From contig JAGYIF010000001.1 in assembly GCA_018402735.1 (NCBI GenBank), forward strand, positions 124,001 through 188,000: a stretch of DNA of 64,000 nt. Reading direction: 5' to 3'. This DNA is from Pelagibacteraceae bacterium. Lineage in GTDB: Bacteria; Pseudomonadota; Alphaproteobacteria; Pelagibacterales; Pelagibacteraceae. Of this stretch, positions 59,900-64,000 are shown one piece after another; the stretch's first letter is position 1; the number at the start of each line of letters is the position of its first letter. The position numbers and the translations under genes were made by a program. The notes under the pieces were generated by a model. The model saw nothing but the letters and a program-made list of their open reading frames with translations, was not told the DNA's origin and searched no databases.

Positions 59900-60916
59900 T
59901 TACTTAATTCCAAGTCTTTTGTGAATATCACTAGAAGAGGTAGTAAATCTAAAAATATATTTTTCATCTGGCTTAGCTCTTTTAAAACATTCCTGAGCAG
60001 CCAAAGCAGCTTCATGAAAACCGCATAAAATAAGTTTTAACTTACCTGGATAAGTGCAGATATCCCCTACTGCAAAAATACCTTTTTCATTAGTCTCAAA
60101 ATTTTCAGTATTCACAATAATGGTCTTATTGTCTAAATTTAGACCCCAATTAACTATTGGACCAAGTTCCATTTTAAGACCAAAAAAAGCCAGAACAGAA
60201 TCTACTTCTAGTTCTTTTATTTCTTTTTTATTATTTTCAATAATAACCTTTTCTATTTTAGCTTCGCCAGCAAAATTTTTTGGTTGGTAATTAGTATAGA
60301 GTTCAATTTTTGCTTCATCTTTCAGTTTCATCATTTGATTTACAGTATGCTGGGCAGCCCTAAACTCATCTCTTCTATGAACTAAAAATATTTTTTTTGC
60401 TGTCTTTGAAAGTTCAATAACCCAGTCTAAAGCTGAATCTCCTCCGCCAAATATACAAACTTTTTGATTATCAAAATTTTTTTTATTTTTAACTGAATAA
60501 AATAAATTATGCTGCTCGAACCTTTCAATTCCTTTAATGGGTGGTTTTCTAGGTTCAAAAGAACCAACTCCTCCTGCTATAATAATATTAGGAGTTTCAA
60601 ATACAGTTTTATCGCTTGTTTCAACAATCCAGTGCTTATCTTTTTTGGTGATTGAATCTACTCTTTGGTTTAAATGAAAAGTGGTTTTAAAAGGTTTAAT
60701 TTGCTCAAGAAGATTCTTGGTTAAACTTTCTCCAGTACAAATTGGAAGCGCCGGAATGTCGTAAATAGGTTTGTCTGGATATAACTCAATACATTGGCCT
60801 CCAGCTTTGTCCAAATTGTCTACAACGTGAGCATTCAAACCCAAAATACCTAATTCAAAAACTGCAAATAAGCCAACCGGCCCCGCCCCAATAATTACCG
60901 CATCTGTTTTAATCAT
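59900..60916 (-). CDS. Ferredoxin-NADP reductase, thioredoxin reductase-like type
   Basis: 338 residues. FAD-binding VIIGAGPVGLFAVFELG, DKAGGQCIELYPDKP and NADP-binding IFGGGDSALDWVIELS are present, and the C-terminal GIFAVGDICTYPGKLKL is typical. The CxxC redox pair of thioredoxin reductase is absent, which identifies the type 2 ferredoxin(flavodoxin)-NADP reductase. It lies 1 base after a 2Fe-2S ferredoxin gene, which likely encodes its partner. Confidence 0.92.
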   Translation of the reverse strand: MIKTDAVIIGAGPVGLFAVFELGILGLNAHVVDNLDKAGGQCIELYPDKPIYDIPALPICTGESLTKNLLEQIKPFKTTFHLNQRVDSITKKDKHWIVETSDKTVFETPNIIIAGGVGSFEPRKPPIKGIERFEQHNLFYSVKNKKNFDNQKVCIFGGGDSALDWVIELSKTAKKIFLVHRRDEFRAAQHTVNQMMKLKDEAKIELYTNYQPKNFAGEAKIEKVIIENNKKEIKELEVDSVLAFFGLKMELGPIVNWGLNLDNKTIIVNTENFETNEKGIFAVGDICTYPGKLKLILCGFHEAALAAQECFKRAKPDEKYIFRFTTSSSDIHKRLGIK

Positions 60917-61237
60917 TTATCCTTGTTTTTCAGGTAACGAAACAACAACACCATTTAAATTTTCATCAACAAATATCTGGCAACTTAATCTGCTACTTGC
61001 TTTTGTCTCAAAGGCAAAATCTAACATATCTTTTTCTGCATCAGATTGCTCAGGTAATTTATCTATCCAATCATCATCAACATAAACATGACAAGTTGCG
61101 CATGCACATGAACCTCCGCAATCCGCATCAATTCCTTGGATATTATTTTGAACTGCTCCTTCCATAATGGACAATCCTTTGTCGACCTCAACTATGTGTT
61201 CGGTGCCGTTAAATTCAATATAGGTTACTTTTGGCAT
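60917..61237 (-). CDS. 2Fe-2S ferredoxin, adrenodoxin type
   Basis: 106 residues. The cluster cysteines appear in DADCGGSCACATCHVY (C-x5-C-x2-C, with an extra Cys inside the loop) and in SSRLSCQIF. This class supplies electrons to Fe-S assembly, P450s or oxygenases. A strong Shine-Dalgarno (AAGGAG on the minus strand) lies 3 bases before its ATG. It is cotranscribed with the FNR gene. Confidence 0.95.
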   Translation of the reverse strand: MPKVTYIEFNGTEHIVEVDKGLSIMEGAVQNNIQGIDADCGGSCACATCHVYVDDDWIDKLPEQSDAEKDMLDFAFETKASSRLSCQIFVDENLNGVVVSLPEKQG

Positions 61238-61271: not shown

Positions 61272-62306
61272 ATGAAGAATTTAAGACAAATTCAATTAAA
61301 TTATAAGACAAAAGTATTTAAGCTTAAAGATGAGTTTAAAATATCTAGGATTTCAAAAAAAATTGTCGCAGTAATAGAAATATACCTCAAGGTTGATTCA
61401 ATTTATGGCTTGGGAGAGTGTATTCCTTATCCAAGATACAATGAAAGACTAGAAGATATTCTTATCTATTTAAAAAAAAATAAATCAGAAATAGAAAAGA
61501 TGCTAACAAAAAAAAATCTCACTAAAATTCCTTTCTTAAGCCTACAAAATGCACTTACTGCTGCACTATTAGATATTCAATTAAAGAAAGATAAAACAAA
61601 TTTTATAAAAACATATCAAATTAAAAAAAAATTTACTACCGCAATTACCATTCCTATATTTGATCTAAAAAAAACTAAACAAACCTTACAAAAATTTAAG
61701 AAGACTAAAATTATAAAAATCAAACTAGATCAAAGTGAAGTAATCCAAAAATTGTCATTAATAAGGACTGTTTGCCCAAAATCACAAATTATTATAGATG
61801 CAAATGAATCTTGGGATCAGCAGTTTTTTAAAAATAATGTTAAAATATTAGAGCAATTTAATATTTTGTTAATTGAACAACCTTTTCCAAGAGGAAAAGA
61901 TCATTATTTAAAAAATATAAAAACAAAATTAAAATTTTGTGCAGACGAAACGTTTCATTTGAAAAACAAAACAATTAATAATGATATAAAACCATATCAA
62001 TACGTAAATTTAAAGCTCGATAAATTTGGAACACATGAGCAGATACTAAAATATATTAAAACTGCTAAAAAATTAAAGAAAAAAATATTGTTAGGATGTA
62101 TGATTAGTTCCTCTTTGTCTCTTTATCCTGCTTTGCGCTATTTTAAATACTGCGATTATTTTGATTTAGATGGTGCTTACTTTTTAAAGCAGGACCGTAC
62201 TGGTGGAATTGTTTATAAAAACGGTATAGCTTCTCTTAGTCCTGGCTTTATTTGGGGTAAAAAAAAGGCCTCTAAAAAGAGGCCTTTTTTAAATTTTAAA
62301 AATTAA
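61272..62306 (+). CDS. Enolase-superfamily dipeptide epimerase (L-Ala-D/L-Glu type)
   Basis: 344 residues from the ATG at 61272, preceded by GGGAG at 61258-61262. Barrel residues of the muconate-lactonising subgroup are visible: KIIKIKLDQ (catalytic KxK), metal ligands in IIDANESW, LIEQPFP and CADETFH, and the second catalytic lysine in VNLKLDKFG. Such enzymes recycle murein dipeptides. The last 13 codons contain a bidirectional terminator. The fold is certain; the substrate is inferred. Confidence 0.85.
   Translation: MKNLRQIQLNYKTKVFKLKDEFKISRISKKIVAVIEIYLKVDSIYGLGECIPYPRYNERLEDILIYLKKNKSEIEKMLTKKNLTKIPFLSLQNALTAALLDIQLKKDKTNFIKTYQIKKKFTTAITIPIFDLKKTKQTLQKFKKTKIIKIKLDQSEVIQKLSLIRTVCPKSQIIIDANESWDQQFFKNNVKILEQFNILLIEQPFPRGKDHYLKNIKTKLKFCADETFHLKNKTINNDIKPYQYVNLKLDKFGTHEQILKYIKTAKKLKKKILLGCMISSSLSLYPALRYFKYCDYFDLDGAYFLKQDRTGGIVYKNGIASLSPGFIWGKKKASKKRPFLNFKN
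62261..62290. terminator. Bidirectional terminator inside the epimerase 3' end
   Basis: AAAAAAGGCCTC (62261-62272), loop TAAAAA, and GAGGCCTTTTTT (62279-62290) form a perfect 12-bp stem flanked by A and T runs. It would end transcription on both strands: the plus-strand epimerase, within its coding sequence, and minus-strand proteorhodopsin, 29 bases after its stop. Confidence 0.9.
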
Positions 62307-62318
62307 TTTAAAATATTA

Positions 62319-63014
62319 TTATTTGCTTGTAGCTGGAGTAAGCGACTTAGCTGTTGCATAAATCACCAGACCAAACAATATCTTGTTGATAAAATCAGCC
62401 AAGTTATAGACTTGATTAAGTGTAACTTCGTCTGCTCCACCTACCATATATCCAAATAGATAACCTAGAGGATATACAGACCAACCAAGTGTAACAATCC
62501 ATTTGCAGAAATTGAAACAATCAGCTGCAGGTCCTTTTAGCTTAGCGGCTTCTTGACCGGCTTCACCTGCAAATACTTCATACAGAATGTAAATCCATCC
62601 ACCCATTCCAATTATGAAACCTGCAGTTACATTCATATAACCAGCTTCACCTAAGTATCCGCCAATTAACATAACTAATGTTCCAATTAAAAGTCTCCAG
62701 AAAATTCCTCCAGACACTTTTTTTACTGCAGATAGAATAAAATAAAACTCGACCATTAACAGTGGAACTGTCAATAACCAATCGATATATCTAAACACAG
62801 TTGGAGAAGTTCCTGTAGTGACCCAAACTTCTCTCATATATACATAGTGAAAAAACGCAATACCACAGACTAGACCTGATATAGTAACTGACGTTCTCCA
62901 TGATGCTTTTACCTGATCTCTTTCAACGAAAAAGAACACAGTTGAAGCCAATAGTGCCATTGATACTAGCCAGAATGTAATTCCAGTAAAATCATTGGAT
63001 TGTAACATGTTCAT
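62319..63014 (-). CDS. Proteorhodopsin, green-absorbing proton pump type
   Basis: 231-residue seven-helix retinal protein that pumps protons outward in light. The DTE set of proton pumps is present in RYIDWLLTVPLLMVEFYF: D78 (acceptor, D97 of the reference green proteorhodopsin), T82 and E89 (donor, E108). The Schiff-base lysine is K211 (LADFINKILFG), and H56 matches H75. The spectral tuning site (reference position 105) is L86, indicating green absorption. Shine-Dalgarno GGGAG is 5 bases before the ATG. Two palindromes precede it. Confidence 0.97.
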   Translation of the reverse strand: MNMLQSNDFTGITFWLVSMALLASTVFFFVERDQVKASWRTSVTISGLVCGIAFFHYVYMREVWVTTGTSPTVFRYIDWLLTVPLLMVEFYFILSAVKKVSGGIFWRLLIGTLVMLIGGYLGEAGYMNVTAGFIIGMGGWIYILYEVFAGEAGQEAAKLKGPAADCFNFCKWIVTLGWSVYPLGYLFGYMVGGADEVTLNQVYNLADFINKILFGLVIYATAKSLTPATSK

Positions 63015-63030
63015 ATTTTCTCCCTTATTT

Positions 63031-63050
63031 TTTTTTGTTTAAACAAAAAA
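63031..63050. promoter_or_regulatory. Perfect 20-base palindrome in proteorhodopsin leader
   Basis: TTTTTTGTTTAAACAAAAAA is a perfect palindrome 17 bases upstream of the proteorhodopsin ATG. It could be a dimeric regulator site or a weak RNA hairpin just before the ribosome binding site. Confidence 0.5.
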
Positions 63051-63079
63051 TGTGAATTCTACTTATATAGAATTCACAT
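63050..63079 (-). promoter_or_regulatory. Hairpin with T-tract upstream of proteorhodopsin (possible attenuator)
   Basis: ATGTGAATTCTA and TAGAATTCACAT form a perfect 12-bp stem with a 6-base loop. Read on the minus strand (the proteorhodopsin direction) it is followed directly by TTTTTTGTTT, like an intrinsic terminator. Since prpE is divergent, no upstream minus-strand gene is visible for it to terminate, so leader control is a plausible reading; a protein-binding operator is the alternative. Confidence 0.55.
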
Positions 63080-63168
63080 GTTTCAAATCTTTATTTACTA
63101 GAGTTTGCAGCATTTAAAAAGCAATAATAACATGAATAAGTCCATATATTTATTGTTTTTTTTAAAAA

Positions 63169-63222: not shown

Positions 63223-64000
63223 TTGAATAGTAAATATAGAGAAGTTTTTAAATCTTCGCTGCATGACAAAGAAGCTTTTTGGGCAAAAGCAGCTGAGGAG
63301 GTTAGATGGATTAAAAAATATGATCAAGTTTTAGATGCAAGCAATCCTCCATTTTACAAATGGTTTAAAGGTGGGACTATCAATACTTGTTTTAATGCAC
63401 TTGATAGACATGTTGAAGAAGGTAATGGAGAAAGAACAGCGCTAATTTACGACAGCGCTATGTCAAATAGCAAAAAAAAATATTCTTACAAACAGTTAAC
63501 AGAGGAAGTTTCTGTTTTAGCTGGTGCTTTACAAAGACAAGGTATTGTTAAAGGAGATAGAATTATCATTTACATGCCTATGATTCCTGAGGCAATTATG
63601 GCAATGCTTGCTTGTGCAAGAATTGGGGCTATTCATTCAGTTGTCTTTGGAGGATTTGCGTCACCCGAACTTGCAAGTAGGATTGACGATTCAAAAGCAA
63701 AATTAATTTTATCAGCTTCTTGTGGATTAGAACCTGGAAGAATTATTGAATACAAACCGCTACTAGTCGAAGCAATTAAATTAGCAAAGCACAAACCAGA
63801 AAAAACAGTAATTTTCCAAAGAGATAAACATAAAGCAATATTAGATAGTAACGATATAGACTGGAACGACTTTATCAAAGGAGCGCCTAGTTCAGTATGC
63901 ATTGAATGTGATGCAAATGATCCTGCATATATTTTATACACCTCTGGCACCACCGGAGTTCCTAAAGGAATTTTAAGAGATATAGGCGGACACATTGTGG
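63223..64000 (+). CDS. prpE: Propionyl-CoA synthetase (AMP-forming), N-terminal part
   Basis: Open to the window end and absent from the ORF track. It begins with TTG at 63223 (MNSKYREVFKSSLHDKEAFW), preceded by a strong GGGGGG ribosome binding site. The N-terminus WFKGGTINTCFNALDRHVEE, VIYMPMIPEA-like IIIYMPMIPEA, ACARIGAIHSVVFGGF, ASCGLEPGRIIEYKPLL and the AMP-binding YTSGTTGVPKG match acetyl/propionyl-CoA synthetases; SCGLEPGRIIEYKPLL favours PrpE. About 259 of some 630 residues are visible. It would activate propionate or acetate. Confidence 0.88.
   Translation, partial: MNSKYREVFKSSLHDKEAFWAKAAEEVRWIKKYDQVLDASNPPFYKWFKGGTINTCFNALDRHVEEGNGERTALIYDSAMSNSKKKYSYKQLTEEVSVLAGALQRQGIVKGDRIIIYMPMIPEAIMAMLACARIGAIHSVVFGGFASPELASRIDDSKAKLILSASCGLEPGRIIEYKPLLVEAIKLAKHKPEKTVIFQRDKHKAILDSNDIDWNDFIKGAPSSVCIECDANDPAYILYTSGTTGVPKGILRDIGGHIV

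Follow-up and report, generated by a model that had tools for sequence, protein, structure and literature searches.

What do two inverted repeats that lie side by side in the leader of a proteorhodopsin (PR) gene do, and do they act as DNA or as RNA? The question arises in a stretch of 64,000 nucleotides from a Pelagibacteraceae bacterium, here called the window. PR is the most common light-driven proton pump of the ocean, and the SAR11 PR genes are among the most abundant light-harvesting genes of the sea. Our analysis suggests that the two repeats give the SAR11 PR mRNA a structured and conserved 5' leader, which would protect the message and keep its ribosome site open; we give this reading a probability of about 0.55.

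A stem-loop and a palindrome abut in the PR leader

The PR start codon lies at 63014 on the minus strand (Table 1), and the leader reads 5' to 3' on that strand ...GAAAC-ATGTGAATTCTA-TATAAG-TAGAATTCACAT-TTTTTGTTTAAACAAAAAA-AAATAAGGGAGAAAAT-ATG. The initial annotation had reported a perfect 12-bp stem hairpin (P1) and a perfect 20-base palindrome (P2) in it, between 17 and 65 nt from the ATG. Both repeats were confirmed in the sequence and in an inverted-repeat listing, and both distances are correct in the sequence. The arms of P1 occupy 63079-63068 (ATGTGAATTCTA) and 63061-63050 (TAGAATTCACAT) of the minus strand and enclose a 6-nt loop, TATAAG; in the RNAfold prediction a thirteenth pair (U-G) closes and leaves a 4-nt loop. 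The palindrome had been described as ending exactly where the hairpin begins, which is correct to within 1 nt, one base (63050) being common to P1 and P2. A T6 tract said to follow the hairpin is indeed present at 63050-63045, but its first T is the last base of P1 and the entire tract is the 5' arm of P2.

Table 1. Features of the PR locus in window coordinates
Feature	Position	Strand	Basis and remarks
Proteorhodopsin (PR) gene, 231 aa	62319..63014	-	ORF; PF01036 Bac_rhodopsin, E=6.6e-42; served by the P1/P2 leader
Shine-Dalgarno (SD) GGGAG	63020..63024	-	Sequence; GGGAG/GGAG kept in related leaders
P2, perfect 20-nt palindrome TTTTTTGTTTAAACAAAAAA, directly 5' of SD	63031..63050	-	Inverted-repeat listing; predicted AU hairpin (MFE); lineage-specific versions at the equivalent site in relatives
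T6 tract 3' of P1	63045..63050	-	Equals P2 5' arm; terminator-like U tract in the window's lineage; missing from g2, g4 and g5
P1, perfect 12-bp stem-loop, predicted near mRNA 5' end	63050..63079	-	Inverted-repeat listing and fold; stem kept with altered sequence in relatives
GCAAACTCTAGTA block, candidate -10 region	63096..63108	-	Partly kept 5' of P1 in g1/g8; by-eye comparison and TSS of the HTCC7211 homologue
Acyl-CoA synthetase, divergent	63223..63999	+	AMP-binding PF00501 and ACAS_N PF16177; TTG start as called mechanically; leaves the window; transcribed away from PR

Taken singly, P1 and P2 are each near chance level for an AT-rich 64 kb and are unremarkable alone. One perfect palindrome of at least 18 nt was observed in the 64 kb against about 0.9 expected from 10 Markov simulations (0.3 for those of at least 20 nt), and perfect inverted repeats with arms of at least 12 and loops of 3-10 were found at five places, where Markov simulations gave about 0.8. 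Since repeats of these sizes are expected about once per 64 kb, comparison with relatives was needed to decide. The folding energy of P1 was extreme relative to its shuffles (z = -6.95, 0/200), and the whole window leader gave z = -5.05. When the 33 ORF starts of the window that have an SD-like motif were scanned, with alternative starts of one gene counted separately, only those of PR had a hairpin abutting a palindrome.

The 3' side of the gene carries a repeat of its own. Between PR and a convergent enolase-superfamily gene, at 62261-62290, is a perfect inverted repeat of 13 bp that contains runs of A and of T (AAAAAAGGCCTCTAAAAAGAGGCCTTTTTT); it falls within the 3' end of the enolase-like gene as called and is probably a bidirectional terminator. 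Beyond the enolase-like gene, on the same (minus) strand as PR, are a 2Fe-2S ferredoxin and a pyridine-nucleotide reductase (60917-61237 and 59900-60916); in HTCC7211, an ORF resembling ferredoxin is found immediately 3' of PR.

The tandem element is conserved across marine SAR11

We extracted about 150 SAR11 PR leaders through genus, family and order searches. Genera are given as g numbers, g1 being that of the window, g4 that of HTCC7211 and g6 freshwater Fonsibacter. Five same-genus relatives of the window's genome all had a PR match (5/5), one of them interrupted by a contig end. The initial annotation had made its proposal depend on the stem being present in close relatives, and P1 with P2 was found in 5/5 same-genus leaders, that of the window included. 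More widely, about 75 distinct SAR11 PR leaders, belonging to six genera (g1, g2, g4, g5, g8 and g10), have P1 abutting P2, as does a deep-lake g6 leader (n=1).

In g1, g8 and g10 the sequence of P1 varies, and the adjoining P2 is near-invariant (TTTTTGTTTAAACAAAAA) and continues into the SD. In g2, g4 and g5 P2 is a perfect palindrome throughout, with the P1 stem immediately 5' of it, and reads GTTTAAATTTAAAC in g2, TAGTTTATATAAACTA or TAGTTTAAATTTAAACTA in g4 and TAGTTTATATATAAACTA in g5. These three genera, which are the larger ones, also have a third, weak helix, P3, formed by (A/G)AAAAC with GUUUU(U/C), whose loop contains the SD; the A-U versus G-C difference in P3 between genera is compensatory. 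A covariance model of the g4 leader was run on 58 genomes and matched a single place in 39 of them, every match lying directly 5' of PR.

The element divides the marine lineages that kept it from freshwater Fonsibacter, which mostly lost it. In the latter (those of L008-L018, L021 and L025 that belong to g6) P1 and P2 are gone and PR is retained, with a TAAATAAACAA-like remnant 5' of the SD; the lake genome L020 of the same genus, unlike most Fonsibacter, retains both. The second family of the order (f2) is without P1, and an AT palindrome adjoins the SD in most of its members. The PR leaders of SAR86 and of other Alphaproteobacteria are unlike those of SAR11. Those of SAR86 (L120-L122, L168) have a different conserved inverted repeat, CTTAATTGAAC...GTTTAATTAAG, and other marine Alphaproteobacteria (L112-L158) include a PR lineage with a strongly conserved leader, CATCTTATTAGTAAGGAAACAAACTATAAGGAGTTTTT, just 5' of the ATG and with no evident hairpins.

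Pairing is maintained with the polarity of RNA

Compensatory changes, for which the initial annotation had suggested looking in related PR leaders, were found in g5, in g4 and in the window's genus, with wobble intermediates of a single polarity. In the g5 alignment 98.4% of cells were paired, compared with 94.2% in column shuffles (0/500), and seven pairs had changed on both sides, compared with 3.7 in shuffles (0/500), such changes being counted here and below over related sequences and not as independent events. When the register was slid, pairing was only 33-55%, and a slide by one column gave 47-55%. The P1 helices of g5 contained 34 G-U cells and zero A-C cells; their non-pairs were A-A and G-A. 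A DNA dyad should accept G-T and A-C equally, because each is the other on the opposite strand. Judged from the sequences, G-U without A-C intermediates in P1 is the mark of an RNA read in the direction of the gene. Pairing in g4 was 97.9%, with two-sided changes in six of eight P1 pairs. Within the window's genus, the fourth pair of P1 is T-A in the window and C-G in three relatives (L002, L004 and L005), with an adjacent G-U pair in L002. P2 and P3 are nearly invariant within a genus, so covariation there is uninformative. The loops of P1 in g1, g8 and g4 were often GNRA (GAAA, GUAA, GCAA or GUGA; 17 of 56 four-base loops), and one leader (L032) had UUCG.

A first count of G-U against A-C in g4 was set aside because one slid register also had a large G-U excess, and the column-wise count of g5 was used. 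An automatic choice of register misregistered several leaders and counted g4 sequences again under g2, and its pair totals were also set aside. MAFFT misplaced the P1 arms both in A1, an alignment of g4 leaders whose loops differ in length, and in the alignments of the window's class (A3, A5); from A3, RNAalifold recovered only P2. Because the arms were misaligned in the window's class, the stems of g1, g8 and g10 were compared by hand.

Both hairpins lie within the transcript of the HTCC7211 homologue

Transcription start sites (TSSs) have been mapped in situ in the Red Sea, and Table 2 of that study gives HTCC7211 PR as 529616-530457 (PMC5069720). In the HTCC7211 genome that we used (G037), the PR coding sequence is 529690-530457, with the ATG at 529690. 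PR and four other entries of that table end exactly at the ends of coding sequences, indicating that this genome shares the table's coordinates. The glcB entry starts 162 nt 5' of its ATG, matching the TSS 162 nt before the ATG that is given in the text of the paper (PMC5069720), and hence the start of the PR entry is its TSS. The HTCC7211 PR leader is 74 nt long. It starts 5 nt before P1, which places both hairpins within the mRNA. Bounded in this way, the leader folds unaided into P1-P2-P3 (z -3.0), and its MFE fold contains no structure competing with P1. By analogy with this homologue, transcription of PR in the window is expected to start between a few and about 15 nt 5' of P1.

The PR start site ranks 10th in strength among the SAR11 TSSs mapped in situ (PMC5069720). 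Most other mapped HTCC7211 leaders are 0-34 nt long, so that the long structured leader of PR is exceptional; among leaders that start between genes, those clearly outside this range belong to glcB (162 nt, with a glycine riboswitch), PR (74 nt) and yhdW (60 nt). A conserved 74-nt leader made almost entirely of hairpins, in a family with very short leaders, provides a concrete target for testing post-transcriptional control of PR.

Terminator, attenuator and operator explanations

The initial annotation had offered three roles, namely a leader attenuator, an RNA stability element or a dimeric operator. The compensatory changes and the HTCC7211 TSS support an RNA element of the leader; the operator is disfavoured, as set out below.

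As an attenuator, P1 and the U tract would end some of the transcripts early, releasing a leader RNA only about 50 nt long. P1 with U6 was scored as a terminator-like site and resembles an intrinsic terminator in the window's lineage; T5-T8 follows P1 in g1, g8 and g10, and the base of P1 in g10 is GC-rich, like that of a classical intrinsic terminator. However, g2, g4, g5 and two further leaders (L003 and L020) retain P1-P2 without a long T tract, and the tract is therefore not conserved along with the stem. The terminator look thus derives from a U tract that is confined to the g1/g8/g10 branch and is accounted for as the arm of P2. The PR start sites are strongly used in the homologue, which also argues against attenuation, though the homologue's lineage is one without the T tract. 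With 5 nt 5' of P1, the HTCC7211 leader leaves no room for a classical antiterminator, and no antiterminator structure 5' of P1 appeared in the MFE fold of that bounded leader. We consider attenuation distinctly unlikely.

The same terminator-like form would also suit termination of a same-strand gene lying upstream. The initial annotation had seen no minus-strand gene upstream that would need a terminator, and this observation extends to the relatives: the upstream neighbour is divergent in 24/24 leaders examined, so that P1 terminates nothing upstream, and in HTCC7211 the start site falls between the divergent gene and P1. We rejected this extremely improbable role on the orientation of the neighbours, barring an unannotated small transcript that begins upstream.

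Binding of a dimeric transcription factor to P2 (or P1) as DNA would explain why P2 is always a perfect palindrome, centre included (GTTTAAAC, GTTTATATAAAC, GTTTATATATAAAC and GTTTAAATTTAAAC). P1, however, is not conserved in sequence, and it shows G-U but not A-C intermediates. The exact P2 sequence has a single copy in the genome, and sites with at most two mismatches are no commoner than those of a reversed-pattern control (8 versus 9). Taken together, the evidence makes the operator very unlikely. An operator serving a regulon was rejected, because its sequence did not recur upstream of other genes in the genome pattern search (P2 once) and the covariance model matched PR leaders only. A regulator with a single target may bind P2 DNA.

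A proposed structured leader of the PR message

For the preferred reading, a structured 5' leader, the data show its anatomy, its conservation, the compensatory changes, the strand polarity and, in a homologue, its position inside the transcript; its effect on stability and translation we infer. P1 would turn the 5' end of the mRNA into a stem-loop. P2 would follow directly, without an unpaired base in between, and would end beside the SD, which would be presented unpaired (g1) or inside the P3 loop (g4). The stacked 5' hairpins could hinder 5'-end-dependent attack by RNase E and could leave the ribosome-binding site free from pairing with the AU-rich leader. The abundant protein would then be made from an mRNA that is long-lived and well translated. 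Stem-loops at the 5' end hinder both RppH and RNase E in E. coli (review PMC3997798), and by analogy with leaders of the ompA type the PR leader should make 5'-end-dependent decay by RNase E slower. The window's genome encodes RNase E/G. Several points count against a stabiliser. P2 is perfect even at its centre, which is unneeded for RNA pairing and is explicable by a DNA dyad; the AU-only P2 is marginally stable at 37 °C (-3 kcal/mol); most Fonsibacter are without the element yet keep PR; and a search for RppH in the window's genome gave no confident match, only one below the cut-off.

A regulated RNA was also considered, in which a protein, a small RNA, a metabolite (for example retinal) or temperature would alter or bind P1, P2 or P3 and thereby switch PR translation or stability. 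The pairing is strongly conserved between genera, the SD is within the P3 loop in g2, g4 and g5, P2 and P3, being weak AU helices, are potentially temperature-responsive, and in the g5 consensus fold P2 has a competitor in an extension of P1. On the other side, there is no aptamer-like conserved unpaired core or long-range pairing, the loop and sequence of P1 vary freely, no Rfam family matches, and a similar leader precedes yhdW, an unrelated transporter gene. On balance we regard a switch of this kind as possible but unlikely. More doubtful still is that P1-P2-P3 is a new sensor RNA, responding to temperature, to retinal, to redox state or to a protein of its own; if so, the amount of the light pump would be set without a transcription factor.

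Relation to known leaders

The 5'-terminal stem-loop stabilisers of E. coli ompA and papA and of B. subtilis aprE (review PMC3997798) resemble the PR leader in that a stem-loop occupies the mRNA 5' end or lies close to it, 5' of the ribosome-binding site, in a highly expressed gene for a membrane or secreted protein, with an RNase E-type decay enzyme present. As in the ompA/papA type, the PR stem is kept as pairing and not as sequence, and in the HTCC7211 homologue only a few nt separate it from the mRNA 5' end, the start in the window being a predicted one. The PR leader differs from these stabilisers in that it has two hairpins side by side, of which the second is a perfect palindrome of A and U next to the SD, and in its unrelated sequence. 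It is best described as a variant among 5' structured leaders and is at most a putative member of the ompA type.

The closest SAR11 candidates already described are two motifs of 'Cand. Pelagibacter ubique' (Meyer et al. 2009, PMC2704228). The pntA-associated motif likewise has two serial stems in a SAR11 leader, but it belongs to a different gene, lies about 60 bp from the start and has a conserved second loop, whereas the PR loops vary and P2 is palindromic and near the SD. The rhtB-associated hairpin is inverted-repeat-like and is followed by U6-9 in about half of cases; unlike the PR element, it is a single bulged hairpin with a conserved loop and bulge, on other genes. PR is not mentioned in that paper (PMC2704228). 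Rfam gave no match at the gathering score in the window, and six relatives gave only matches far below gathering scores. No report of a tandem-hairpin PR leader was found in Rfam or the open-licence literature, which is weak evidence as it covers open-licence papers only, and that literature likewise yielded no report of post-transcriptional control of the SAR11 PR message.

A further likeness within SAR11 is the leader of the yhdW/aapJ-like amino-acid-binding proteins of Pelagibacter (g4 and g5), where a hairpin abuts a perfect palindrome that is followed by the SD. Its sequence is different from that of PR (core GTTAAC), and its folding in HTCC7211, where the mapped leader is the 60-nt one, is no better than that of many shuffles (z=-1.17). 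In g4 it reads ATTCAAAA..TTTTGAAT followed by TATTTGTTAACAAATA (L270/L277; HTCC7211 1014861-1015259, minus strand). The yhdW/aapJ-like leaders among L273-L322 have the same arrangement, the g5 version being TATTGTTAACAATA; a leader of this type was not found in the window's genus.

Palindromes also occur near the SD of some other HTCC7211 genes. A general enrichment 5' of SDs was not significant in 118 sampled leaders (4 seen, 1.6 expected). The only four with a palindrome of at least 12 nt within 30 nt of the SD (L327, L337, L340 and L341) all precede genes whose products resemble exported substrate-binding or similar proteins, and the mapped HTCC7211 leaders of tauA, opuAC and potD have such palindromes as well.
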